Virus record (IMG/VR): IMGVR_UViG_3300047366_000011
Coordinates: 1-26,307 of that record
Length of the DNA: 26,307 bases
Origin: a virus
Direction: 5' to 3' (one strand)
The notes beneath the pieces are model-generated. The model did not search any database, was not told where the DNA came from, and saw nothing but the letters and a program-made list of their open reading frames with translations. Made by a program: the position numbers and the translations under genes. Shown piece after piece: positions 1-11,351 of this stretch. Position 1 is the stretch's first letter, and every line of letters starts with the position of its first letter.

Positions 1-241
1 TCAGCTTCAAGCCCATCTTAGCTTCCTGACGCATACGCATCAAGTTGCCCAGACCAATGTAACGCACAACGTCAGCCGGGAATACAAACTCTCCTTCACT
101 AAGCTGTGCAGGAATGTCATCACGCACTTCTTCTTGTGTGGAGCCGGGTGGCACATCGTTGCCAGACACAGGGTCTACAGTGCCGCCTTCATCCATAAGA
201 CCACCGTCTTCAAACATTTCCATCTGTTCATTGAGAGCCAT
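1..241 (-). CDS. Phage structural-type protein, N-terminal part only
   Basis: The reading frame starts at ATG 241 and runs off the left edge, so about 80 residues are visible. The visible part is acidic and Gly/Asp-rich at first, then carries the segment LSEGEFVFPADVVRYIGLGN, which I recognise from a common marine-phage protein encoded next to the portal. Its function is not established; a virion or assembly role is inferred only from its place after the portal. The start overlaps the end of the upstream 80-residue gene by 14 bases, as in the rest of this tightly coupled operon. Confidence 0.75.
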   Translation of the reverse strand, partial: MALNEQMEMFEDGGLMDEGGTVDPVSGNDVPPGSTQEEVRDDIPAQLSEGEFVFPADVVRYIGLGNLMRMRQEAKMGLKL

Positions 242-470
242 TAACTTCATCCCTTAGTGTTTTAAGTTTACGTAATGCTGCAATCGCACCCTGCGACCTG
301 TACATCATTATATTGTCGTCTGCTTGCTCAAGTGCCTTCTGCTGCATTTCTATTACAGCATCAATGTAACTACTGAACGCTTCCCATTGGCGGTTGTTGC
401 CCACCCACGGCTTGAGTCGGCTGAGTAGTTGGTCCTTGTTGTTGTGCATTTCCACTAAATCCTTGTTCAC
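228..470 (-). CDS. Small helical protein after the portal
   Basis: This 80-residue protein is predicted largely helical, with a central WEAFSSYIDAVIEMQQKALE segment and a charged C-terminus. I recognise the pattern from marine podoviruses, where it follows the portal, but no function is known to me. Its first 101 bases overlap the 3' end of the portal gene in another frame. A second in-frame Met at residue 8 would shorten the overlap by 21 bases. The downstream part beyond the portal stop keeps a consistent protein-like composition, which argues that the frame is real. It could be an assembly or scaffold-like factor, but that is a guess. Confidence 0.75.
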   Translation of the reverse strand: MNKDLVEMHNNKDQLLSRLKPWVGNNRQWEAFSSYIDAVIEMQQKALEQADDNIMMYRSQGAIAALRKLKTLRDEVNGSQ

Positions 471-2520
471 CCGGCACAGGAGCCTGTCCTACACCTATGT
501 TACCGCCACCTGCACCAGAGGTATCCATAGCATTAGCCCCCGGAGGAGGAGGTGTACCCTCTTGTCCTTCAGGTATCGGTGCTTGGAAGCCTTTCATAAT
601 CTCTGCTTGCAGAGCAGCTTCATCCATGTTGTTGGTTACTTTGTCGGGGTCTAAGTCCATTGACTTCGCAATTTCACGAATGATATATTGGAACTTAGCA
701 AAGGGTGCCAATGCTGGGTTGCTTGCAACTTGCAAGAACTGCATAAGACGTTGACTGCGTACTTCGTTAGCCATAAGGCTTTCTGTACCACGTGCTTTGA
801 CTTCCAGATCGCCTTTAATATTAGGATCAAAGTCAAACTGCATATTGAACCGGAAGAAACCTTCACCAAGTGGTCGCAGTAAATAGTCATCTACATTTTT
901 AATTACTGTTTTGGTGCCGCCAGCAGCAGCACCCATAAGCATAGAGATACCAGAAGCAGTACGGCCCACACCTTGTACGCCTGTCTGCCCATGCGCAAAT
1001 GATGGGAAGCCTGTGCTTTCATCTGCCAATACACGAGCCTTATCAAACAGCATCATGTTTTCAGATGACACATTTGGAAACTTTGTGCCAAAGATAGCCT
1101 GACCCGGTGCGCCGCCCTGACGACGGAATACTTTGCCCGGATACAGTGACAGGTCTTGTCCCGGCACCAGATTGGTTTCATCTACTTCTACAATCAAGTT
1201 ACCTGACAGGACGGCGTTGTCCACAGCCATACGCATAAAGCCATTCATCAGCGTCTGCGTATCGTCCATGTTCTCTGCAATACCTACACCGAAGAAACTG
1301 TATGGATTGAGTTCGTAAGGTGCAGCATGATATGGTATTTTAGCTGGCTTAAATGGGTTAAGCACCATGCGTATTAGTTCGTTATTACAGACCCACACAT
1401 TTGCTTGCAGTTCATCGAAATCTTGCAGTTCTTTTGGTATGTCTACGCCCTGCTCTTCCAGCATGTCAGTATCAACCATACCCCAGTATTCAAGCACCTC
1501 AAAGCGTTCAATACCGTGTTCTGGAGCATAATCAGAGAGGTCGTCTTCCCAATACTTCTTATTGTAGTTTTCGCCCATGCGAATTGCTTCATCAATAACT
1601 TTACTACGGAAGTACGGACGCTTCTTTAGATTGCGCAACTGTGAACGCGACATCTTATGGCGTTCAATAACATACTGCGACTCATCCATATTGTTAGCAT
1701 CGGGATCAGGATAAAAGTTCCACACGGACACATGCTCAACTTGTGGAACCGTTTTGAACATAGGATCATAGTCACCGTCTTCGTTCCAATTAGGATACTC
1801 TTTATCCGAAGCAAATGGACCTTTCATCACGCCTGTACCAAACAGTGCCATTTCAAATGCAGAATTACGCAGATGCTTAGTAGCACCTGACTCCTCAAGC
1901 TGGTCATGTATTTTCTTCTGCATCTTTTTAGCTGCAACCATAGCTGGGCTAAATGTAATTGCAGACGGAGTTTTACCCGGACCTTCTTTTAGTTTGTCTT
2001 CTACAGGCTCTAGTTTGTTTGACAAGCCACCTAGCTTATCCAACAAAGATTGGGCAGTAGAACCCGGAGGAAGATCGTTGCCGTCTCCCGCAAAGCCATA
2101 GGGGCTAGACAGCGCAGTTTCTCCGCGAAGCTGTTCAGGCTCCTGCGGATCAAAGTGTACGTCGGCAACTACACCTTCAGGCAACTCTGTAGGCTCAATA
2201 GAAAGGGGAAATCTGTGATTAGCAAACAGCACATCAACAATCTGCCCGTATGCTGCTAGTGTCTTAGTCTTTGTTACCTTAATAAAGACACGGGACTTTT
2301 CTGCTTCAGTGAATTGCACATCAGGACCGTACAGTCCACGGTAGTTACGATATGCACGAAGCCAGCGTTCTTCATCTTGGTATCGGTAATCTTCTGACCG
2401 TTGAAAGCGTTCCATAATAAATGGAATAATCTTAGATACGTCAGCGTCTTCTACAGCAGTATCATCTGTATCTTCTAACGCAATAGCGTCGTCTTCGATC
2501 ATAATTTCATCGTCTGCCAT
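370..2520 (-). CDS. Portal (head-tail connector) protein
   Basis: This 716-residue protein fits podoviral portals, which form the dodecameric ring at the capsid vertex for DNA entry and tail attachment. It starts with an acidic tail (residues 1-30), has the portal-like core with many aromatic and basic residues, and ends in a Gly/Pro/Gln-rich low-complexity tail. The ATG at 2520 has a good AAGGA-type ribosome site. It lies 11 bases after the large terminase gene, the standard terminase-portal order. The 3' end overlaps the next gene by 101 bases out of frame. The call rests on length, overall pattern and position rather than a short diagnostic motif. Confidence 0.85.
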   Translation of the reverse strand: MADDEIMIEDDAIALEDTDDTAVEDADVSKIIPFIMERFQRSEDYRYQDEERWLRAYRNYRGLYGPDVQFTEAEKSRVFIKVTKTKTLAAYGQIVDVLFANHRFPLSIEPTELPEGVVADVHFDPQEPEQLRGETALSSPYGFAGDGNDLPPGSTAQSLLDKLGGLSNKLEPVEDKLKEGPGKTPSAITFSPAMVAAKKMQKKIHDQLEESGATKHLRNSAFEMALFGTGVMKGPFASDKEYPNWNEDGDYDPMFKTVPQVEHVSVWNFYPDPDANNMDESQYVIERHKMSRSQLRNLKKRPYFRSKVIDEAIRMGENYNKKYWEDDLSDYAPEHGIERFEVLEYWGMVDTDMLEEQGVDIPKELQDFDELQANVWVCNNELIRMVLNPFKPAKIPYHAAPYELNPYSFFGVGIAENMDDTQTLMNGFMRMAVDNAVLSGNLIVEVDETNLVPGQDLSLYPGKVFRRQGGAPGQAIFGTKFPNVSSENMMLFDKARVLADESTGFPSFAHGQTGVQGVGRTASGISMLMGAAAGGTKTVIKNVDDYLLRPLGEGFFRFNMQFDFDPNIKGDLEVKARGTESLMANEVRSQRLMQFLQVASNPALAPFAKFQYIIREIAKSMDLDPDKVTNNMDEAALQAEIMKGFQAPIPEGQEGTPPPPGANAMDTSGAGGGNIGVGQAPVPGEQGFSGNAQQQGPTTQPTQAVGGQQPPMGSVQ

Positions 2521-2531
2521 GTGTTTTTCCT

Positions 2532-4091
2532 TTAGTATCCAAACGTGGAGTCAGCTACCGGCATACCTGTTGATGGTCGCCCGTGCGGGTCGTAGTCAAA
2601 AATAGAGAACCGGGGTCGGGACATAATACCGTACCGGAGTGCGTCATACAAATGGTCCTCAGACTTTGTATCAACGTCTTCTGGATTTTTCTTGTCCAAG
2701 GGGATGGACGGTATTTGTGATATGACATTTGTACAGCTATTAAAGAATACAAGTCTTGGTTCCTCTGTAAATTCATCTATCTGTAGGCGGCGGTGTATTT
2801 CGTTCTTACCTGCTACACGACTACCACGACTTCTGTCAGACGGTCTCCAACGACAGCCTTTACTAATCATTTGCTCCGCAAGAGAAGGACCAGTATCGCC
2901 ACGCTTGTGCCAAAGACTGCTATCCAAAACACCATACTTAATGTTGCCATCTTCAGCTTCCAAATCCAATATCATATCGGCCAAGTCTGTGGCCAAAACC
3001 TTACTGACGTATAGTTCTCTATACACAACCAGTTGCTCATCAGGCGCAACGGCAAACCAAATAACACCAGAATAACTGCCGTAACCATAGTCACATGCAC
3101 GAAACTTGACCCAGTTGTTAGGGATACGAAAAGGCTCCACAACGTGAACATCCCGATTAAACTCAGTAAACGCTGCACCTTCTTTGATATCCCAATCGCC
3201 TTCAAGAAGCTGCCTACGCTGCTGCTCTGGAAGGGAGAGAAGCATGGCTTCATAGTCTCCTGCCGCAGATAGGTACGGGTTATCAGAAAGTCTTGCTGGG
3301 ATGAACCGTCTTTTGAATAGAGACTTTCCAGCCTTGCTATGTCCTGCTGGGTACTTGAGTACCTCTCCTGTTTCAATATCGGTTGCATCAAATGCCTTAT
3401 TATATGCAGCAGGGTCAATAAACATTTTCTTGACCCATTGGTGTCCTCGTCCACCGGGGTTAGTAGTGCCTCTCATAAAGATAGGCAGGTCTGGTGCAGT
3501 GGACCGTAGACGTGACCGCATGTAATTCCATGCGTATGGTGTGGCCCACTGGGTCAATTCGTCAAACCCTATCCAGCTAAATGCTAGACCCTGATAACGC
3601 AAGACATCATCATCTCTATCCAGATAAGACATCCACAACCTTGCGCCAGATGGTGCAGTCCACTGCATCTTACGTTCTGACCACTTAATACCCGGCCAGA
3701 TTTTTGGGTACAACTCCTGCGACTTAAATATCAGTTCTCGCAGTTCTTCTGTTGTGTGTCGCAGCAGCAGTCCACTGAACTGTGAATGACCCATATATCG
3801 CAAGGGGTCTGCCAACATGGCGTAGCTTTTGCCGCCACCGGCACTACCTCCATATAAAACTTCACGTTCACTAGCAGCCAAAAACTCTGTCTGTGGACCG
3901 GGATTGGGCTTGAACAACACATTAGCATGTTCTTCAATGCTGCTAGTTTCATGTGAAACTTCTTCAATCTCAACCGTTGGCTTTTGCGCCTGTTCTTGCT
4001 TCTTCGATTGCCTTCGCTTTGGCGATTGCCGTTTCCGCATATTCTGCCCACTTGCGGAGGCTTTTAGCTTTGTCCTTACGCTGTCGTTCAT
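2532..4091 (-). CDS. terL: Terminase large subunit
   Basis: This 519-residue protein is the DNA-packaging motor: an ATPase that pumps DNA into the procapsid and a nuclease that cuts concatemers. Walker A is GGSAGGGKS at residues 81-89, Walker B ends in FDE at 176-178, and a TTNPGG coupling motif lies near 209-214. The RNase H-like nuclease domain shows acidic candidates D334 (ACDYG), D390 (VLDSS) and D479/D483. The first roughly 40 residues are basic and low-complexity and overlap the upstream gene by 122 bases, so translation may start later, for example at the ATG at 4040. Neither candidate start has a strong ribosome site. Confidence 0.95.
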   Translation of the reverse strand: MNDSVRTKLKASASGQNMRKRQSPKRRQSKKQEQAQKPTVEIEEVSHETSSIEEHANVLFKPNPGPQTEFLAASEREVLYGGSAGGGKSYAMLADPLRYMGHSQFSGLLLRHTTEELRELIFKSQELYPKIWPGIKWSERKMQWTAPSGARLWMSYLDRDDDVLRYQGLAFSWIGFDELTQWATPYAWNYMRSRLRSTAPDLPIFMRGTTNPGGRGHQWVKKMFIDPAAYNKAFDATDIETGEVLKYPAGHSKAGKSLFKRRFIPARLSDNPYLSAAGDYEAMLLSLPEQQRRQLLEGDWDIKEGAAFTEFNRDVHVVEPFRIPNNWVKFRACDYGYGSYSGVIWFAVAPDEQLVVYRELYVSKVLATDLADMILDLEAEDGNIKYGVLDSSLWHKRGDTGPSLAEQMISKGCRWRPSDRSRGSRVAGKNEIHRRLQIDEFTEEPRLVFFNSCTNVISQIPSIPLDKKNPEDVDTKSEDHLYDALRYGIMSRPRFSIFDYDPHGRPSTGMPVADSTFGY

Positions 4092-4371
4092 TCGCTAACC
4101 GTTTCCTCAATCCTACGTGTGAGATATATCTGCCGCTATTTGTTGTCAGCCAATTTGCTACCTCACGGTAAGAATATTGATTGACGTACTTACGTGCTTT
4201 CTCTAACAGGTCCAGTTCAACTGGAATAGGGTCAAGAATGTCAGGGTCTTCTTCACTCTGTTTGTAACCAAAAGGTACAGTCCTTGCAATGCGAGGTATC
4301 TGCACCCATACGTTTTCTTCTTTGATGTCTGTTGGCTGTGGTAGCTTCCACTTGCCTACGCTTCTAGTCAT
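3970..4371 (-). CDS. Terminase-associated DNA-binding-like protein
   Basis: This 133-residue protein sits between the two terminase subunits. Residues 65-95 (YSYREVANWLTTNSGRYISH and the following basic stretch) read like a helix-turn-helix with R/K-rich follow-on helices. The C-terminal 40 residues look coiled-coil and basic. It may be a DNA-recognition accessory factor for packaging, but that is inferred from position. The ATG at 4371 overlaps the end of the preceding gene by 8 bases, and the 3' end overlaps terL by 122 bases. Confidence 0.8.
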   Translation of the reverse strand: MTRSVGKWKLPQPTDIKEENVWVQIPRIARTVPFGYKQSEEDPDILDPIPVELDLLEKARKYVNQYSYREVANWLTTNSGRYISHVGLRKRLANERQRKDKAKSLRKWAEYAETAIAKAKAIEEARTGAKANG

Positions 4372-4738
4372 CGTCTTCCACAGCAGCTTTAGGCGGCATA
4401 AGCATAACGCCGCCGCTTGCTTCTACCTGCATCTTCTCTGTCTTTACCAGACCTACACGGTCAAGCAGTTCTTTGGCAGCGGACATCTTATCACGAATGC
4501 CTAGTTCAGTTGGGTCGTACAAAGCGTGTGTCATTGCTATCGCCGCCTTCGGCGCATTACGTGCCATGTACATTTGAGTCGCCTCAAGTATTTCTTCTTT
4601 GAGACCCTTAACAATCTCAGCAGTACCAGAAGTGTCAGCATATCCTGCCATCTTTTTAGCCGCAACCATATCGCCACCAGCTTCATCAAAAAGCACGGCA
4701 AGAAACTTCTGTTGTTTGTCCGTTAACTGTCTAGCCAT
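4364..4738 (-). CDS. terS: Terminase small subunit-like protein
   Basis: This 124-residue protein starts LTDKQQKFLAVLFDEAGGDM and continues with a helical AAKKMAGYAD segment, the pattern of small terminase N-terminal DNA-binding domains. It then has the NAPKAAIAMTHALYDP and GIRDKMSAAKELLDRVGL helices that I recognise from marine-phage proteins annotated as small terminase. Its role would be to recognise phage DNA and load the large subunit. Its ATG at 4738 overlaps the lysozyme stop (TAATG), so translation is probably coupled. The acidic tail (EDDD) overlaps the next start. Confidence 0.8.
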   Translation of the reverse strand: MARQLTDKQQKFLAVLFDEAGGDMVAAKKMAGYADTSGTAEIVKGLKEEILEATQMYMARNAPKAAIAMTHALYDPTELGIRDKMSAAKELLDRVGLVKTEKMQVEASGGVMLMPPKAAVEDDD

Positions 4739-5223
4739 TAAAACTCACCATGATGCATTGCGTGGGCTAATTTTGTACTACGTGATTTTACCTGAACTGC
4801 CCACCTGCTGTCAAGCATTTCTTTTGCCGCTATGTCAAACTTTCCTTCGTGAATAGCATTCCACATTTTTTGAAATTTTCGCAAGCGAGGTACGCCCATA
4901 TTAAATGCCATATCCATCAGTACAAGTTGACGTACAGCGTCTAACTCCTCCACGCAAGGGTGCGCACGAACAAGTTCCTCTTCGACTATCTGTACGTCAT
5001 TCTTTGCGAGGTACATAGCATCAGCTTCAGTAATACCGTACTCGTAGACGGCATCCATAGTAGGAATGTCCATCCAGTCCAGTTCTTCTTTTGTGATACC
5101 ACGGTCCTCTAGGTTGCGTCCGATACCAATCGTATCAATACCAAGCGTATCTTTGTACACTTGAAGGCGCAAACCTTCGTGTGCTATAAGTTTGTTTACA
5201 AAGTTCTCAGAATTATATTTCAT
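4738..5223 (-). CDS. GH24 (T4-type) lysozyme, endolysin
   Basis: This 161-residue protein cleaves the glycan strands of peptidoglycan at the end of infection. The T4 lysozyme active-site geometry is intact: E16, then D25 (8 residues between), then T31 (5 residues between), within the HEGLRLQVYKD and DTIGIG motifs. The conserved C-terminal FNMG and aromatic/Arg helices are also present. There is no signal peptide, so export needs a holin, and two likely holins lie immediately upstream. The start ATGA overlaps the stop of the 67-residue membrane protein. A second muralytic enzyme (SleB type) is encoded on the other strand at 17101. Confidence 0.93.
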   Translation of the reverse strand: MKYNSENFVNKLIAHEGLRLQVYKDTLGIDTIGIGRNLEDRGITKEELDWMDIPTMDAVYEYGITEADAMYLAKNDVQIVEEELVRAHPCVEELDAVRQLVLMDMAFNMGVPRLRKFQKMWNAIHEGKFDIAAKEMLDSRWAVQVKSRSTKLAHAMHHGEF

Positions 5224-5423
5224 TTCTCATGCCCCATCCACACCGCAAATGCACCTGTCATGGCCCCCGTGACTACACTCACTAGACCCGCCTGTGCGTT
5301 GGTAGGGTCTGGCAATGTCATAAACCACTCCACTACCCGCCAAGCGGATATTGACATCATAATCATCATCAAGCGGGGCAGTATCTTCCACTTGAGTAGT
5401 CTTTCCATTGTTACTTCTGCCAC
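5220..5423 (-). CDS. Small two-helix membrane protein, likely holin
   Basis: This 67-residue protein has two hydrophobic segments, about residues 15-36 and 44-63, joined by a short MTLPDPTNAQ loop. It has a basic N-terminus and a charged end. I recognise the WRVVEWFM...DPT...TGAMTG pattern from marine podoviruses. The GTG start at 5423 is chosen because a GAGGA ribosome site lies 6 bases upstream; an ATG at 5408 is the alternative. It overlaps the lysozyme start by four bases, which fits a holin or lysis-timing role. That role is inferred from topology and context. Confidence 0.75.
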   Translation of the reverse strand: MAEVTMERLLKWKILPRLMMIMMSISAWRVVEWFMTLPDPTNAQAGLVSVVTGAMTGAFAVWMGHEK

Positions 5424-5483
5424 GATTAATCCTCGCCTGTTTTTCTGTTGTTCTGTCGTGCATACTCCACATCTGCAATAGGA

Positions 5484-5867
5484 CTACCCTTTTCCAAATA
5501 ACCTAGTAGCACTGCGAACACCAAAGCTGGCAGCAACGATAACACCAAGGCTATACTGATACCATGAAGGCATTGCTTGGAGTTGGGCAAATCCATTTGC
5601 CACTACTTCTTCCATACCCGGAATGAACGCAAGAATGAGAGGTATACTGAACAGAATAGTAAGCCACTCATCTTTCCACGAAGACTTACTTCCTTTAGCC
5701 ATTTCCAAATCCCAGTCAAGTTCGCCAGTAGCTTTCTTTTCCATGATTGTAGCTTCAGCTTTAGCCCGTGCAACTTTTGCACCAGTTTCTGCTTTAGTCT
5801 TTTCAACTTTTCCATTTAACCACGTCCCTGCCAGTTCAGCAACTGGCCCTATCAATAAGTTTAACAT
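5484..5867 (-). CDS. 3TM-type holin
   Basis: This 127-residue protein has a first amphipathic or hydrophobic helix (1-17), a charged Ala/Lys/Glu helix, then two clear membrane segments near residues 69-85 and 104-122. This matches the family I know as the 3TM holin of gene-transfer agents and phages (GTA_holin_3TM). Such holins permeabilise the inner membrane so the lysozyme can reach the wall. It lies 60 bases upstream of the second small membrane protein and just before lysozyme in the same operon. An AGGA ribosome site sits about 7 bases before the ATG. Confidence 0.82.
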   Translation of the reverse strand: MLNLLIGPVAELAGTWLNGKVEKTKAETGAKVARAKAEATIMEKKATGELDWDLEMAKGSKSSWKDEWLTILFSIPLILAFIPGMEEVVANGFAQLQAMPSWYQYSLGVIVAASFGVRSATRLFGKG

Positions 5868-6015
5868 CCTTTAGTTCCTGTAGCTTTTTCTTGATTAAGA
5901 ATACACGGGTCTCTACATCTGGCTCCATATCAGCCAAACGAAACGTGCGTGGGTCTTTACCCGCCTCTGCGAAATCTTGCAGTCTTTTTTGCAATAGATT
6001 TAGGCTGGCGTACAA
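5836..6015 (-). CDS. Small hypothetical protein, start uncertain
   Basis: The frame is open from 6075 to 5836. The protein-like part is residues after about 20 (LLQKRLQDF, GKDPRTFRLADMEPDVETRV), which looks conserved and soluble. I chose a TTG at 6015 because a GGGG ribosome site lies 6 bases upstream and the first 20 residues of the longer version look like a shadow of the overlapping basic gene. An ATG at 6075 would give 79 residues. It overlaps the holin start by 32 bases. Function unknown. Confidence 0.55.
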   Translation of the reverse strand: MYASLNLLQKRLQDFAEAGKDPRTFRLADMEPDVETRVFLIKKKLQELKDVKLIDRASC

Positions 6016-6205
6016 ATTGTTTCCCCTTACGTGATCCTTCTCTCTTAGCCTTAGTTGTAGCAGCATACTCTGCACTTGTCAAGGACTTTATTGCTTTATC
6101 AGGTAAATACCTTTCACCTGTCTTGGCAGATGGCTTACCTGACTTGGTGCGCCACTTCTGTTTTGTCCAGTTTTTCAGGCTCTGTTGTGACTTTGCAATT
6201 GCCAT
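5957..6205 (-). CDS. Small basic protein (DUF5872-like)
   Basis: This 82-residue, Lys/Arg-rich protein has the pattern LKNWTKQKWRTKSGKPSAKT, then GERYLPDKAIKSL and a basic tail ending in KKTARFRRGG. I recall similar marine phage proteins under the label DUF5872, but that is from memory. High positive charge suggests nucleic-acid binding or packaging with the genome. The ATG at 6205 touches the stop of the upstream 232-residue gene. Confidence 0.75.
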   Translation of the reverse strand: MAIAKSQQSLKNWTKQKWRTKSGKPSAKTGERYLPDKAIKSLTSAEYAATTKAKREGSRKGKQFVRQPKSIAKKTARFRRGG

Positions 6206-6903
6206 TAGTTTTTCTGTGACTTTCTAATCTGTTTAAAAGTTTCTTGGATGCTTGGTGGCTTGGTTTCGTTAGGGTCATACTTACACTGAAATTCACGGGG
6301 GAACCATTCGTCCATACGAAAAAACAATGTGTCCACCGTATTGTTTACACCGTGATAGACGCACACACGCTGTTTGTCTACCGTAGTACAACCCTTCAAC
6401 CTGCACGTTACATACTCTGGGTCTGCTGCTTTAGCGACTGTACCCTTCATAAAGACTACAAAAGCATACAAGGCTGCTGCACCTGCAGTGACCACCAGTA
6501 TCCATGCTACAATCTCTACGAACTTCTGCCTACGTTCACGCTGCTTGTAAAGTGTTTCTTTACGCTGCTTACGTATCTGGCCTTCCATTGCCACCAGTGA
6601 ATCCCACTTAGACTTACCCATAGTCAGGCTTATCCACTGCTGCAGTTCGTATCTCTGTTGCTTCGCCTTTTCTTTGTTGGCAAATGCGGTTATTGCTTCC
6701 TGCTCTACGGATTGTCCAGCAAACAGCTTCTTAAATATAGGCGGGTTCTTTGCCTCTTTCTCAGCCTGTTCCAAGTCAGACATGGCACCCATCCATCTGG
6801 ATAAGTCTCCTGCCATCTGTTCTATGTCACGGCCTACTGCAAAACCTTTTTTGATTGCACCAAACGCTGCCGAAGCAGTCGCCATTGCGCTGATGGGGTC
6901 CAT
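6205..6903 (-). CDS. Membrane-anchored helical phage protein
   Basis: This 232-residue protein begins with an Ala-rich helix (MDPISAMATASAAFGAIKKG), continues as a charged helical domain to about residue 128, and has one membrane segment at about 129-151. The last 80 residues contain four cysteines (in CRLKGC, CVYHG, FQCKY) that could form disulfides outside the cytoplasm. The N-terminal domain resembles proteins common in marine podo- and cyanophages with no assigned function. It stands in the lysis and small-protein part of the late operon, so an envelope or virion role is plausible. An AAGGA ribosome site precedes the ATG. Confidence 0.8.
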   Translation of the reverse strand: MDPISAMATASAAFGAIKKGFAVGRDIEQMAGDLSRWMGAMSDLEQAEKEAKNPPIFKKLFAGQSVEQEAITAFANKEKAKQQRYELQQWISLTMGKSKWDSLVAMEGQIRKQRKETLYKQRERRQKFVEIVAWILVVTAGAAALYAFVVFMKGTVAKAADPEYVTCRLKGCTTVDKQRVCVYHGVNNTVDTLFFRMDEWFPREFQCKYDPNETKPPSIQETFKQIRKSQKN

Positions 6904-6904
6904 C

Positions 6905-7132
6905 TTAATATATCCTTACGTTGTCGGGGTTAACGTATTTAGGTACACAATAAGCTGTTACTCTGTCTTTTGGGTCTAAGTATGCGCTATACTGATAATT
7001 ACCATACCTCTTTGCTGACTTTTCTGCAAAATAATTGCACTCGTTAATACTACGAAAGTACATGTCGCCACTGACTAAGTTGCGAAACTCTCCTGTGCCT
7101 AAATAGACAAGAAGCAGAAATACGTGTTCCAT
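6905..7132 (-). CDS. Small hypothetical protein (75 residues)
   Basis: The frame is open further upstream, but the natural start is ATG 7132, one base after the stop of the preceding gene. The product begins with a hydrophobic stretch (MEHVFLLLVYLGTGEF), followed by a soluble aromatic-rich body with two cysteines (INECNYF, TAYCVPKYVNP). I recognise this as a widespread marine-phage protein of unknown function. The hydrophobic N-terminus may be a short anchor. Confidence 0.78.
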   Translation of the reverse strand: MEHVFLLLVYLGTGEFRNLVSGDMYFRSINECNYFAEKSAKRYGNYQYSAYLDPKDRVTAYCVPKYVNPDNVRIY

Positions 7133-7133
7133 G

Positions 7134-7415
7134 TCATTTGTAACCGCCTCCTGCTTTTTTATAGGCTGACGCAAGCATCTGCGCCTTACGTGCTGACCAC
7201 TGACCGGGTGCGCCACCTTTGCCCCCAGCCTTGATACGATTAAACTGTTGCTTTCTCATTCCGGGCTTAGTATAGTTGCCAGCTTCATTAACTCTTGATT
7301 TGCTCTTAGGCGCACCGCCTTGCGAAAGGCTAACCGTTCTAGTCGGTTTCTTTTTCGCTGCAGTTTGTGTGGCTTTGGTTTTTTTAGCGGCTGGCTTTTT
7401 AGTGACACGGGGCAT
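7134..7415 (-). CDS. Small basic protein, KSRVNEAGNYTKP family
   Basis: The product is 93 residues from ATG 7415, which has AGGAGACAGGAG just upstream; an upstream in-frame Met at 7469 would overlap the neighbouring gene. The first 40 residues are Lys/Ala/Thr-rich. The conserved part is KSKSRVNEAGNYTKPGMRKQ followed by FNRIKAGGKGGAPGQWSARK and AYKKAGGGYK. This recurs in marine phages without known function. Strong positive charge suggests DNA or RNA contact. Confidence 0.78.
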   Translation of the reverse strand: MPRVTKKPAAKKTKATQTAAKKKPTRTVSLSQGGAPKSKSRVNEAGNYTKPGMRKQQFNRIKAGGKGGAPGQWSARKAQMLASAYKKAGGGYK

Positions 7416-7425
7416 CTCCTGTCTC

Positions 7426-7785
7426 CTATCTCGCTGGGTCAAAAAATTCTTCACAGGCAGTAGTAACAACTAGCTTACTAGCTGTACCTGCTGTGCATTT
7501 GATAATATCACCTGCATGAAGATACAGGGGTCTGTCTACAGTAAATATAGACTCGTATGACCCACCCGCAATATTGTGAGCAGTCAACAAGTCATACTCT
7601 GTATTATCATCTGCATGAAAAAAGTGTAGGCTCAAAGTCACGTTACCTGTGTGATTATTACTTACAAACAAATTCTCCAAGTGTGAAGAGAAGTTTGCAG
7701 GTACGGTGTACACATTAGTCTTGTTAGTATTACCTAACGCAACTACCTCTGTACGAAACTTTGAGCCTGATTGTAGTACGGGCAT
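7426..7785 (-). CDS. Beta-rich virion-type protein
   Basis: This 119-residue protein has the alternating pattern of a beta sandwich: VYTVPANFSSHLENLFVSNN, a middle LSLHFFHADDNTEYDLL segment and a C-terminal LHAGDIIKCTAG. Similar small proteins in marine phage virion modules have this VxTxPAN...DNTxYxLL...LxxGD layout, often taken as decoration or neck proteins. The ATG at 7785 overlaps the stop of the 43-residue gene (TAATG). A structural role is inferred, not shown. Confidence 0.75.
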   Translation of the reverse strand: MPVLQSGSKFRTEVVALGNTNKTNVYTVPANFSSHLENLFVSNNHTGNVTLSLHFFHADDNTEYDLLTAHNIAGGSYESIFTVDRPLYLHAGDIIKCTAGTASKLVVTTACEEFFDPAR

Positions 7786-7916
7786 TACTTCTTCTTCTTA
7801 GCCGCCATGCCGCCACGCATCATCTTCTTCTTGGCTACGGCACCGCCGCGCATCATTTTCTTTTTAGCTGCTGTCTTCATCATGCCGCCGCCCCGCATCT
7901 TTTTCTTCATTACCAT
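7785..7916 (-). CDS. 43-residue Lys/Met/Gly repeat microprotein
   Basis: The translation from ATG 7916 is 43 residues built almost entirely from K, M, R, G and A, with three imperfect repeats of the unit KKKMMRGG(G/A/M)xxAK. A GGAG ribosome site lies 9 bases before the ATG, and its stop overlaps the next ATG (TAATG). The same KK..MMRGGMA unit recurs in the gene at 8695-9039. The 5' end overlaps the upstream 201-residue gene by 53 bases in another frame. A DNA-condensing or virion peptide is possible; function unknown. Confidence 0.65.
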   Translation of the reverse strand: MVMKKKMRGGGMMKTAAKKKMMRGGAVAKKKMMRGGMAAKKKK

Positions 7917-8469
7917 TTCGTAATCTCCGTCTGTCAATAACAAGAGAGTGGAATGTCTCTACCGGAAACTTCAAGTAGTATCCACTCTTTTCTAAACTCA
8001 ATGCGGCATCGTCCAACACTGAGAGCCTCTGCACAAATACCATGCAGTATTCTAAGTCAGGGTCACTGACCCCCTCTTGTAGTAAAAAGTCTAGCCCAGC
8101 TTCTTCTGCACTGTACTCTGGATGAAACTGCATCAGGTGCATGTCTTTACCCAATACAGATAACATCTCGTTCATACCGTCACAGAAACCGTCTAGGTAT
8201 TCCATGTCCGGTAACATTTCGCTGGCCCACACTACAATGTCATAGTCGTGTGTGTCAAAGTCACGTACAGACTCTACCAGCCCGTCTAGTCCTGTGTTGA
8301 TACTAAATGTTACCTTGTTATCTGCCCACGCTTGTTTTGCATAAGGGCAGGGAGGTAGGCCATTTAGTTTCTCATTAGGTACTTCAAGAAAGTTGTTTGA
8401 CCAGTTACGAATGTCCTGTTCAATCTTATGCACGGGGGTTTCGTTTACCTGCTGTTCGTGTACGAGCAT
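7864..8469 (-). CDS. Hypothetical protein with NGLPPCPYAKQA motif
   Basis: This 201-residue acidic protein has the N-terminal pattern IRNWSNNFLEVP...NGLPPCPYAKQAW and a body with VVWASEMLPDMEYLDGF, LMQFHPEY and the C-terminal LVIDRRRLRNG. The CPYAK-type motif resembles the start of DUF1415-like proteins, a loose resemblance from memory. A single invariant-looking Cys suggests a thiol or metal role, but nothing can be assigned. The last 18 residues overlap the 43-residue gene and look low-complexity. The first 44 bases overlap the HNH-like gene. Confidence 0.78.
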   Translation of the reverse strand: MLVHEQQVNETPVHKIEQDIRNWSNNFLEVPNEKLNGLPPCPYAKQAWADNKVTFSINTGLDGLVESVRDFDTHDYDIVVWASEMLPDMEYLDGFCDGMNEMLSVLGKDMHLMQFHPEYSAEEAGLDFLLQEGVSDPDLEYCMVFVQRLSVLDDAALSLEKSGYYLKFPVETFHSLVIDRRRLRNGNEEKDAGRRHDEDSS

Positions 8470-8695
8470 AAGACCTATTCTTAGATGCTGGCTTCACCGT
8501 AAGGTTAGCCCGGCGATTGTCACGGGGATTGCCGTTACGATGCGCTACATCTTTACCCGCCACAGACACGCCAGCCTTCTTCAGCTTGTTACGTGCAGCA
8601 TTACGTGCATTACGCCGTTTCACCTGCGTAGGCTTACCATGGTAGTTTGCGTACTCTTTTTTATAGTTACGCTTGTAGCCGGGACTGTTAGGCAT
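8426..8695 (-). CDS. Small HNH-nuclease-like basic protein
   Basis: This 89-residue protein starts MPNSPGYKRNYKKEYANYHG, has a Lys/Arg/Asn-rich helix and then GKDVAHRNGNPRDNRRANLT, which matches the C-terminal half of a small HNH motif (D-x-x-H...N-x-x-N-L). It lacks the two zinc-binding CxxC pairs of larger HNH enzymes, like other short phage versions. If active it would nick DNA, for example in packaging or homing. Degenerate spacing around the first His leaves activity uncertain. Start and stop are coupled to neighbours (TAATG at 8695). Confidence 0.72.
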   Translation of the reverse strand: MPNSPGYKRNYKKEYANYHGKPTQVKRRNARNAARNKLKKAGVSVAGKDVAHRNGNPRDNRRANLTVKPASKNRSYARTRTAGKRNPRA

Positions 8696-9039
8696 TACTT
8701 GCCCATGATCTTGTTGTAGGCTTTCATACCCTTTGGCCCACTAGCTTTCAATGCTTTGAGGCCGGGGTTCTCCGTTACACTGCCACCAGCAGCATACATA
8801 TGTTGCTTACCGTTAGCCATACCGCCACGCATCATCTGTGCTTTCTTTGCCATGCCACCACGAGCTTTCTTCTGTGTATTTTCAGGCGTAGAAATTTTAT
8901 TTTTTCTAAGGATACGTTTTAACGTAATCGCAGTCTGCTCATCAGTCAAATCGTTCTCACGCCCAATACGCATTGCTTCTTCTTGGGCCTGTTTAAACGT
9001 GGTAATTTTTTTACCTGTTATAAAATCAAGAAATCCCAT
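8695..9039 (-). CDS. Phage protein with MMRGGMA repeat linker
   Basis: This 114-residue protein has an N-terminal helical domain (MGFLDFITGKKITTFKQAQE, then NDLTDEQTAITLKRILRKN), a basic Met/Gly linker (KKARGGMAKKAQMMRGGMA) and a C-terminal GGSVTENPGLKALKASGPKG motif familiar from marine phages. The linker shares its unit with the microprotein at 7785-7916. Start and stop are both TAATG overlaps. Function unknown; a virion-associated role is plausible. Confidence 0.78.
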   Translation of the reverse strand: MGFLDFITGKKITTFKQAQEEAMRIGRENDLTDEQTAITLKRILRKNKISTPENTQKKARGGMAKKAQMMRGGMANGKQHMYAAGGSVTENPGLKALKASGPKGMKAYNKIMGK

Positions 9040-9836
9040 TAGTTGTTTCCTTTTTTCTTTAGAGAGGCTTTAGCAGCAGAAGTGAGAGTATCCCGCGCCT
9101 TCTTTCTAGCCTTATATGTATCTTCTTGTTTCAGCCGCTGTGCTGCAGTTACCTTCGGTGCGTCAAAGTCTGGCTTACCTGTGCTGGTGTTAATAGCGGT
9201 GTACATCTTAGGCTTTGGCGTAGGCTTTGTCGTTTTGTTATTCTTCTTAGGACGTGCAGGAGGAGGTGTGGGACGAGCCGGTTTATTTGGCATACGTTTT
9301 GCAGAAGCACCTTCGGCTGTAGGCTTACTGGTTGTCGTCTTCTTTTTCTTATTGGACAGTACAGACCCACCACCCTGTGCTGCTGACTTAGCTGCCAATC
9401 TACGTTGCCTTGCAGATACCCGTGCTTCATCACGGGCTTGGTCAGACGTCTTAGAGGGCTTGCTCTTCTTCGGCTTGTCTGCATCTTTGCCTGTGGCAGT
9501 AGAGCCAGCAGCTACACCTGCTCCCGCTGCTGCGGCACCTGCAGCCTTACCACCACCGCTGCTCTTAGGCGGCTTTGGCAGAGTACTCGTATTTGGATTA
9601 CGTGGGCTTACTCTAGGCTGTGTTACCGGCTTAGTCAAATCTTGTACAATAGACCTACCCTTTGAGGAACCCATAGTTGTTACGGTTGCATTCTTAGGCG
9701 GGGTACGGGTAGTAACATTACCTGCCTTGGCAAATCGTCCTTTGAATGCCTGTGCCGCCTTTTTGGTGGCAAACTTGAAAAATACTTTACCACCTGCAAT
9801 CGCTAGGGGTACAAAAAATACTGCTGGGCCAGCCAT
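9039..9836 (-). CDS. Low-complexity Lys/Pro/Ala/Thr-rich protein
   Basis: This 265-residue protein starts with a hydrophobic segment (MAGPAVFFVPLAIAGGKVFF) and then becomes almost wholly disordered, rich in K, P, T, A and G, including a Gly/Ala run at about residues 93-112 and Pro/Lys runs near 185-210. The end (SAAKASLKKKGNN) is helical and basic. An AAGGA ribosome site precedes ATG 9836. The composition resembles internal virion or DNA-binding tail proteins, but nothing specific is recognisable. A long frame on the opposite strand is its shadow. Confidence 0.75.
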   Translation of the reverse strand: MAGPAVFFVPLAIAGGKVFFKFATKKAAQAFKGRFAKAGNVTTRTPPKNATVTTMGSSKGRSIVQDLTKPVTQPRVSPRNPNTSTLPKPPKSSGGGKAAGAAAAGAGVAAGSTATGKDADKPKKSKPSKTSDQARDEARVSARQRRLAAKSAAQGGGSVLSNKKKKTTTSKPTAEGASAKRMPNKPARPTPPPARPKKNNKTTKPTPKPKMYTAINTSTGKPDFDAPKVTAAQRLKQEDTYKARKKARDTLTSAAKASLKKKGNN

Positions 9837-9848
9837 GTGTTTATTCCT

Positions 9849-10142
9849 TTACCATTTAACTTTATGTGACCAGTATTTTGCAGACAGCTTCGTGGTCGGT
9901 TTGCCTTGCGCATCATGCCTTGCATAATACGACTTCTTACGTGCTTTGTCCTTGGCAGTCTTAGGAGACTTACCAGCACCTGATACACCTTGCTGTCCAA
10001 AGCGTATAAACTTGTATTTACCACCTTCCGATGCCATCACACAGTGAGACTTCGTTGGATGCTTGGGTGTCCTCTTAGGCTTGTTCACGCCCTTGAGACC
10101 CTCTTCCTTCATCTTGTTCTTGACTCTCTCTGGAATACTCAC
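9849..10142 (-). CDS. Small basic protein with IRFGQQGVSGAG motif, GTG start
   Basis: The product from GTG 10142 is 97 residues: SIPERVKNKMKEEGLKGVNK, then TKSHCVMASEGGKYKFIRFG, GQQGVSGAGKSPKTAKDKAR, and an end in AKYWSHKVKW. The family is common in marine phages and begins at this SIPE motif. The GTG overlaps the upstream stop as GTGA, which supports this start over an ATG at 10181. It is highly basic with a conserved C-terminal Trp pair. Function unknown; nucleic-acid or virion contact is likely from charge. Confidence 0.78.
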   Translation of the reverse strand: MSIPERVKNKMKEEGLKGVNKPKRTPKHPTKSHCVMASEGGKYKFIRFGQQGVSGAGKSPKTAKDKARKKSYYARHDAQGKPTTKLSAKYWSHKVKW

Positions 10143-10351
10143 AGGGAAATACCTTTTTGTTTGATAGACTGCTCTACGCACTTATACTGATACGTATGCG
10201 GCACAGGGAATGCCATACGCATCTGTGCTACCATCTCATGTACCCGCATAACGCACTGACCTTCAGTCTCATAGGGGCCAAGAGTATCCTCTGCCTCAAT
10301 GCATCTATCCGGCGCAGCCATGACACAAGCCAATACCAATGCTGTAAACAT
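10139..10351 (-). CDS. Small cysteine-containing hypothetical protein
   Basis: This 70-residue protein starts with a short hydrophobic stretch (MFTALVLACVMAA), then DRCIEAEDTLGPYETEGQCV and a C-terminal YKCVEQSIKQ. The three cysteines after the hydrophobic start resemble an exported, disulfide-bonded protein, although the N-terminus lacks basic residues. I recognise the EDTLGPY..TE..C pattern from marine phages. A strong GGAGGAC ribosome site precedes the ATG. Function unknown. Confidence 0.72.
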   Translation of the reverse strand: MFTALVLACVMAAPDRCIEAEDTLGPYETEGQCVMRVHEMVAQMRMAFPVPHTYQYKCVEQSIKQKGISL

Positions 10352-10352
10352 T

Positions 10353-10562
10353 TCATTTGTCCTCCGACCATCCTTCAGCCCTCATTGCTTCTTCTACATG
10401 TTTCAATGTAAATGAACGCCCATAGTGTGCCTCAACGGCAGTACGCACGTAGAAGACATCGCTATGGGGTATGTGGAGACGGTCTAATGTGTTAGTACGG
10501 ATGGCATTGTAGAATGCATCTAGTACATTGTCTGTGTATAGTTTTACGGATTTCTTTGCCAT
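10353..10562 (-). CDS. Small helical protein, first gene of the leftward operon
   Basis: The product from ATG 10562 is 69 residues (MAKKSVKLYTDNVLDAFYNA ... SFTLKHVEEAMRAEGW). An in-frame ATG at 10628 exists, but the segment between them lies inside the repeat-rich leader and lacks a ribosome site. The C-terminal half looks like a helix-turn-helix or small helical bundle and could bind DNA. It is the gene closest to the palindromic array at 10626-10739, so it is a reasonable candidate for a regulator acting on that array, which is inference only. Confidence 0.68.
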   Translation of the reverse strand: MAKKSVKLYTDNVLDAFYNAIRTNTLDRLHIPHSDVFYVRTAVEAHYGRSFTLKHVEEAMRAEGWSEDK

Positions 10563-10625
10563 TGTCAAGCACTTTCTGTGAAAAACACAGATATCGGGGC
10601 TATACAGGTTTTTATTAGGGTATGT

Positions 10626-10739
10626 CACTTAGGTGTACACTTAGGTGTATTTAACATCTAAATTCTAATGTCACTTAGGTGTACATTTAAGTGTATTTAT
10701 AATTTTACTAATAGACACTTTAGTGTATCACTGTTAGTG
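10626..10739. repeat. Array of six palindromic CACTTARGTG sites
   Basis: Six imperfect palindromes of about 10 bases lie at 10626, 10638, 10672, 10684, 10716 and 10729: CACTTAGGTG (three copies), CATTTAAGTG, CACTTTAGTG and CACTGTTAGTG. They come in three pairs with starts 12-13 bases apart, just over one helical turn. The array lies immediately downstream of a strong leftward promoter and upstream of the first leftward gene, so a multimeric repressor or activator array is likely. An iteron-type origin is the alternative. Confidence 0.8.
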
Positions 10740-10756
10740 TGCTTTAGTTATACATA

Positions 10757-10785
10757 ATTATACCAGAATGAGGCAATGCCGTCAA
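10757..10785 (-). promoter_or_regulatory. Consensus sigma70 promoter firing left (late operon)
   Basis: On the minus strand, TTGACG (10785-10780) is followed after exactly 17 bases by a perfect TATAAT (10762-10757). Transcription would start near 10750 and run through the palindromic array into the leftward structural and lysis operon. It is the best promoter match in the window and points to host RNA polymerase use. The close array suggests it is tightly controlled. Confidence 0.88.
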
Positions 10786-11336: not shown

Positions 11337-11351
11337 TGTCACGCGGTGACA
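11337..11351. repeat. 15-bp palindrome TGTCACSCGGTGACA, copy 1
   Basis: TGTCACGCGGTGACA flanked by AAAA on both sides, GCG centre. It lies 28 bases upstream of the -35 of the promoter for the gene at 11445. It is one of six copies between 11.3 and 14.5 kb. Confidence 0.85.

Follow-up and report, generated by a model that had tools for sequence, protein, structure and literature searches.

The window, by which we mean the whole 26,307-nt stretch analysed here, comes from a marine podophage of the HMO-2011 type. By gene content and order its source genome is close to HMO-2011-type isolates, the gene for a 69-amino acid (69-aa) protein and its neighbour match HMO-2011 and the CRP phages (tblastn), and an integrase, primase, helicase, DNA polymerase, exonuclease and endonuclease I are common to its early arm and HMO-2011. 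The phage encodes its own replication proteins, and an integrase gene is present in it and in many of its relatives. Phages of this type are dominant and broadly distributed in the ocean; integrase is present in some of their subgroups, and CRP-3, a member of the HMO-2011 group, has been shown to integrate (PMC9038755). The leftward operon of the window is assigned as the late operon because it contains the genes for the large terminase subunit and the portal (Table 1). No RNA polymerase gene is reported for the HMO-2011-type group in PMC9038755 and PMC8528129, so the late genes are probably served by host promoters. In the leader of this operon, between a promoter (P1) and the 69-aa gene, lies an array of six short palindromes. 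A keyword check of the genome papers PMC9038755, PMC8528129 and PMC6918029 found no description of it: the term "promoter" is absent from the first two, which use "repeat" in unrelated senses only, and "promoter", "repeat" and "palindrom" are all absent from the third.

Table 1. Promoter-like elements, dyad sites and genes of the late region, in window positions
Feature	Sequence	Position	Strand	Remark
P1, sigma70-type promoter	TTGACG-17-TATAAT	10757..10785	-	TG before the -10 box; fires leftward into the array
-10-like block	TATAACTA	10745..10752	-	at the expected transcription start, just behind the P1 -10 box
S1, pair 1	11-mer CACTAACAGTG read leftward (CACTGTTAGTG on + strand)	10729..10739	-	
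S2, pair 1	CACTAAAGTG (CACTTTAGTG on + strand)	10716..10725	-	
S3, pair 2	CACTTAAATG (CATTTAAGTG on + strand)	10684..10693	-	
S4, pair 2	CACCTAAGTG (CACTTAGGTG on + strand)	10672..10681	-	
S5, pair 3	CACCTAAGTG (CACTTAGGTG on + strand)	10638..10647	-	
S6, pair 3	CACCTAAGTG (CACTTAGGTG on + strand)	10626..10635	-	
P2, promoter-like element	TTGACA-N16-TAAAAC(TATA)	10541..10568	-	overlaps the start of the 69-aa gene
69-aa protein gene		10353..10562	-	heads the late operon; product modelled as three helices, candidate binder of the array
Rest of the leftward late operon		1..10351	-	terminase large subunit, portal, small genes
Terminase large subunit gene		2532-4091	-	part of the late operon
Portal gene		370-2520	-	part of the late operon
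Candidate small terminase gene, 124 aa		4364-4738		upstream of the large subunit gene

P1 agrees with the consensus at 11 of 12 positions and has a 17-bp spacer with a TG ahead of the -10 box. An earlier note on this DNA had called it the strongest promoter, which is true by a small margin: a second promoter-like site at 4814-4785 ties with it at 11/12, with a poorer spacer of 18 bp and without the TG. The six sites are CACT-N2/3-AGTG dyads with small deviations, 17-131 nt behind P1. Within the three pairs the site starts are 12, 12 and 13 bp apart, and the pairs start at intervals of 46 and 44 bp. All six fall within 114 bp, whereas shuffling the local 300 bp 2000 times never gave more than two, and no second array was seen elsewhere in the window. 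The six palindromes that the same note had described, in three pairs behind a near-perfect sigma70 promoter, are all where it had put them, and its placement of the array in the leader of the late operon is upheld by the large terminase and portal genes behind P1. The -10-like block close to P1 (TATAACTA) recurs in most leaders of the CACT lineage (lineages are named here after the word of their sites); it may mark a second start, or act as a -10-like element that induces pausing.

Most relatives were gathered through the 69-aa gene, giving 249 loci that hold it, so that the universality of this gene among them is partly by design. In 43 non-redundant leaders of the CACT lineage there are 216 CACT-type sites, as against 23 in shuffles, and 87 site pairs with 2-4 bp in between (2-3 bp in 82 of them). 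Measured from the -10 box, a position-weight scan puts the site starts at about 16, 29, 62, 75, 107 and 119 nt downstream, in narrow slots of 15-17, 26-34, 60-67, 73-78, 105-112 and 115-124 nt. The length of the leader behind P1 varies widely but these offsets do not, and the slots and the pair spacing are kept while the surrounding leader sequence diverges. A promoter-like element precedes the 69-aa gene in nearly all related leaders; array and promoter are conserved together, which passes the main test that the earlier note had set for its own reading, since a conserved promoter without a conserved array would have counted against it. Searching 2.9 million viral contigs independently of the gene, with the paired motif CACTTAARTG-N2/3-CACTTAARTG alone, gave 59 hits. 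The 69-aa gene lies at most 450 bp downstream and on the same strand in 52 of these, and elsewhere in the locus in four (L286, L295, L335, L341). The three hits without the gene are L333 and L337, in which the array is near an end of the fetched locus, and L290, in which it lies in unrelated sequence. The reading of the array as a protein-binding regulatory element is well supported by these sequence comparisons.

In a group of distant relatives whose 69-aa protein is about 50% identical, CACT-type pairs are found in both orientations, approximately 355 bp apart, upstream of the gene (L287, 8355-8742; L295, 357-735). Two-site clusters at 8-10 kb in the inspected CACT genomes were rejected, being inside coding sequence.

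The array sits between two promoter-like elements, P1 and P2, of which the earlier note had missed the second. The -35 box of P2 touches the ATG of the 69-aa gene, its TAAAAC -10 box falls in codons 6-8, and the whole TAAAAC(TATA) stretch runs inside codons 6-9. Counted over related sequences, which are not independent of one another, the P2 codons of the CACT lineage are GTA for Val in 89 of 89 and CTA for Leu in 89 of 89 distinct sequences, compared with 46% GTA and 9% CTA elsewhere in the 69-aa gene. Counted in the same way in the AGTT lineage, they are GTA in 65/65 and CTA in 60/65, though the residue between them changes from Lys to Gln. A few loci (L072, L078, L084) are without the ATG and have kept TTGACA together with the 16-nt distance. 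P2 is kept at the nucleotide level in the CACT and AGTT lineages, and we regard it as a putative promoter. In the TACT lineage a similar element is located upstream of the ATG, so the proposed logic from P1 to P2 cannot be the same in all lineages, a point against it.

Relatives outside the CACT lineage have other words in the same geometry. The word of the CRP-9 lineage is TACT-N3-AGTA, with 198 sites in 32 loci (11 expected), and that of the CRP-2 lineage is AGTT-N1/2-AACT, with 97 sites in 20 loci (13 expected). Neighbouring dyads 11.5-14 bp apart, centre to centre, number 45, 64 and 19 for CACT, TACT and AGTT, respectively, and 0, 0 and 0.2 in shuffles. The spacing of slightly more than one helical turn within pairs, in which the earlier note saw a sign of cooperative dimers, is therefore kept in three lineages with different words, as paired dimers would lead one to expect. 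In some leaders of the AGTT lineage (e.g. L192 and L211) the spacer and -10 box of P1 are themselves overlapped by dyads, at a place classically occupied by repressors, which favours repression rather than late activation. The word tracks phage lineage in helicase and DNA polymerase trees without informative discordance; since words follow whole lineages, the trees do not assign the array to any one gene. Ten leaders of freshwater relatives (loci L464-L513) contain 12 dyads of the form ATAG-N4-CTAT where 0.4 are expected, and the array theme may accordingly extend beyond the marine lineages. One contig (G029) with gene and array in two copies and two different words looked like proof of a match between array and gene; it was set aside because homologous late-operon starts lie at both ends and the assembly is probably chimeric. 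The 58.6-kb contig of L246 has CACT-type and AGTT-type late-operon starts at opposite ends (L278/L279), and is probably a chimeric assembly.

A second array of three or four dyads, likewise missed by the earlier note, is present 5-7 kb away in six of six TACT-lineage genomes. It has the geometry of a 12-bp pair, a gap and another pair, with 40-45 bp between pairs, and shuffles of the same sequences produced no such clusters. It is intergenic, standing ahead of an integrase-like gene in L271 and L272 and of short reading frames in others, near the head of an early/middle gene set. We take these intergenic arrays to speak for a regulon and against both an origin and a packaging site, and the presence of arrays at more than one promoter in this lineage points to such a regulon. 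A further TACT cluster at 5.4 kb in L271 (5408) and L272 was discarded as coding sequence. In HMO-2011 (GU557055) unit-like sites, TACTTTAGTG and CACTTAACTA, are listed at positions 55270, 19, 51 and 1219; three unit-like sites are near the start of the early arm, and two are inside longer ATATACT...AGTATAT palindromes.

The window also has six exact palindromes TGTCAC-(CGC/GCG)-GTGACA (at 11337, 12165, 12385, 12909, 13392 and 14485), mostly inside AAAATGTCAC...GTGACAAAAT and intergenic among the rightward early genes. They are absent from HMO-2011, and either a further family of operators or a repeated element is the probable explanation. Palindromes GTGACA-N3-TGTCAC in the TACT lineage precede a weak -35 box of the late promoter (L098, L105, L117), and are also present at the second array (L271, about 6836-6850; L273, about 6370-6395); they are a possible activator site.

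The 69-aa protein has relatives in marine and freshwater phages, with the conserved core HIPHSDVFYVRxA...L..VE.AM..EGW. Its structure, predicted with 85 relatives at a mean pLDDT of 83, consists of three helices, in keeping with the small, helical product that had been claimed for this gene. No relatives were found in Pfam, PHROG or the PDB. Fold searches matched it reliably to no solved fold and gave very weak matches to TEA and Pax5 domains; VIA-align found no known HTH domain with a Z of 2 or more, and a viral structure library returned only two family-like uncharacterised proteins. A ribbon-helix-helix (RHH) identity, suggested by eye at the N-terminus, was tried and rejected: the profile PF01402 has no match in the window, and there is no RHH family among 56 members of the 69-aa family. 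Since the profile is absent and the freshwater relatives have the N-terminal stretch replaced, the protein is not filed as RHH. The predicted monomer has no N-terminal strand and an N-terminus of low confidence; the strand of RHH proteins forms only in the dimer. By its linkage to the array, the 69-aa protein is the leading candidate for the binder.

On balance we favour, as rather probable, the view that the array is a cooperative operator of a phage regulator which would repress or block P1, the 69-aa protein being the likeliest binder. From sequence comparison we infer protein binding, cooperativity, repression, a function for P2 and the identity of the binder, which would fit together as follows. 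One protein dimer would read each dyad of 9-11 bp, two dimers side by side and 12-13.5 bp apart would cooperate, and three such dimer pairs would succeed one another at about 46 bp. Pair 1 would span about +11 to +34 relative to the P1 start, and a protein bound there would clash with the polymerase at P1, so that P1 would be repressed or the polymerase halted just after the start; the further pairs would strengthen binding and block elongation. Transcripts started at P2, on the far side of the array, could cover the remainder of the late operon without passing through the sites, and binding would move late transcription from P1 to P2. The 69-aa protein would bind the array and so regulate itself. 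In the course of the phage cycle the block of P1 would either be lifted or stay in place, and P2 would serve the remaining genes of the operon. The direction of this control, a presumed repression or roadblock of P1, is moderately supported. We also suggest, tentatively and with some doubt, that the 69-aa family may comprise new small phage transcription factors which regulate their own promoter and, in some lineages, the early/middle set; their word would have shifted (CACT, TACT, AGTT) with the paired-dimer geometry fixed, and they would switch between tandem late promoters.

The binder of this operator array might instead come from the host or from a phage gene located elsewhere, with the 69-aa protein an unrelated early-late or structural accessory. 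CATT-drifted arrays adjoin 69-aa proteins barely different from those beside CACT arrays, and no co-variation of the protein with the CATT variant was seen; this is a misfit with a simple link of one protein to one word and speaks for another binder, as do the want of a recognised DNA-binding fold in the 69-aa protein and the failure of the trees to assign the array to one gene. The misfit is eased in that the base concerned is commonly either C or T in many of the sites. Against these points stands the gene-independent scan, in which the pair is found almost only beside the 69-aa gene; moreover, few early gene families are common to all three lineages, and no early protein scanned matches a known regulator family. 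We therefore consider another binder unlikely, though it is the most serious of the alternatives.

That the array is the platform of an activator of late transcription, from P2 or P1, and not of a repressor, seems improbable. The near-consensus P1 should not require an activator, the slots are fixed relative to P1 and not to P2 in leaders of varying length, and the AGTT-lineage dyads overlap P1. What such a reading would explain is the position of the array upstream of P2 in the CACT and TACT lineages, and the need of a late operon without a phage RNA polymerase for control of a positive or timed kind.

We think it very improbable that the array is an iteron-like origin of replication that fires from an AT-rich leader under transcription, much as the T7 primary origin has tandem promoters and an AT-rich stretch. 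As in T7, promoters surround such a stretch and the phage encodes replication proteins of its own, and the cumulative GC skew has its minimum near 11-12 kb; this switch coincides with divergent transcription, however, and is hence confounded. Unlike T7, the promoters here are of host type, the iterated dyads keep fixed distances to the P1 -10 box, and in the TACT lineage a similar array recurs near a promoter elsewhere in the genome.

We give hardly any credence to an array that acts as RNA, its half-sites pairing into leader hairpins for antitermination or translational control. Folding of the leaders is slightly stronger than that of shuffled sequences (mean z -2.1), and neighbouring sites are self-complementary by construction, but the predicted folds and pairing partners differ from phage to phage, the covariation term in the RNAalifold consensus fold of 40 leaders is unfavourable, no Rfam family reaches the gathering score, and dyads of the AGTT lineage are found in promoter sequence that is not transcribed. 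Permutation tests run slot by slot yielded weak signals for intra-site dyads and for inter-pair inversion, both explicable by relatedness. Finally, a packaging site (pac or cosB-like) for the small terminase subunit is extremely unlikely since, in spite of the small-terminase-bound repeat arrays known in lambda-type phages and of a candidate small terminase gene ahead of the large subunit gene (Table 1), neither the fixed spacing to P1 nor the further arrays that the TACT lineage has beside a different gene set would be expected of it.

The layout is kept by hundreds of related phages, often with a different word, and we take it to be most likely the platform of a phage regulator that would time the virion genes. 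Should the array prove to be a late-switch operator, it would provide a first handle on the timing of virion production with host RNA polymerase, and the lineage words, with their constant geometry, would form a natural series for the joint change of an operator and its protein.

Read as the operator of a phage regulator, the array can be compared with several known systems. With the operators of temperate-phage lysogeny repressors it has in common an integrase in the same genome and, in the TACT lineage, sites at more than one promoter; it differs in that no cI-like gene is recognised, and subgroups IV to X are reported to be without lysogeny genes (PMC9038755). The operators of the RHH proteins Arc, CopG, MetJ and ParR are likewise compact tandem dyads of 9-11 bp at about one helical turn, with a small protein encoded beside the sites; unlike those systems, the 69-aa family has no RHH match and no predicted N-terminal strand. 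Operators of AbiEi-type antitoxins are cooperatively bound, multi-operator autoregulatory promoters (PMC7319586). Compared with these and with the operators of lambda Cro and CI, the phage array has up to six sites downstream of the start site in the CACT lineage, its pairs recur every 46 bp or so and are followed by a second promoter-like element, its words change between lineages while the geometry stays, and its candidate binder is not of a recognised family. What it shares with both is the plan of several inverted repeats at the promoter of an operon in which the first gene encodes a small candidate DNA-binding protein, together with a pairing of sites which suggests that cooperative dimers would bind them.
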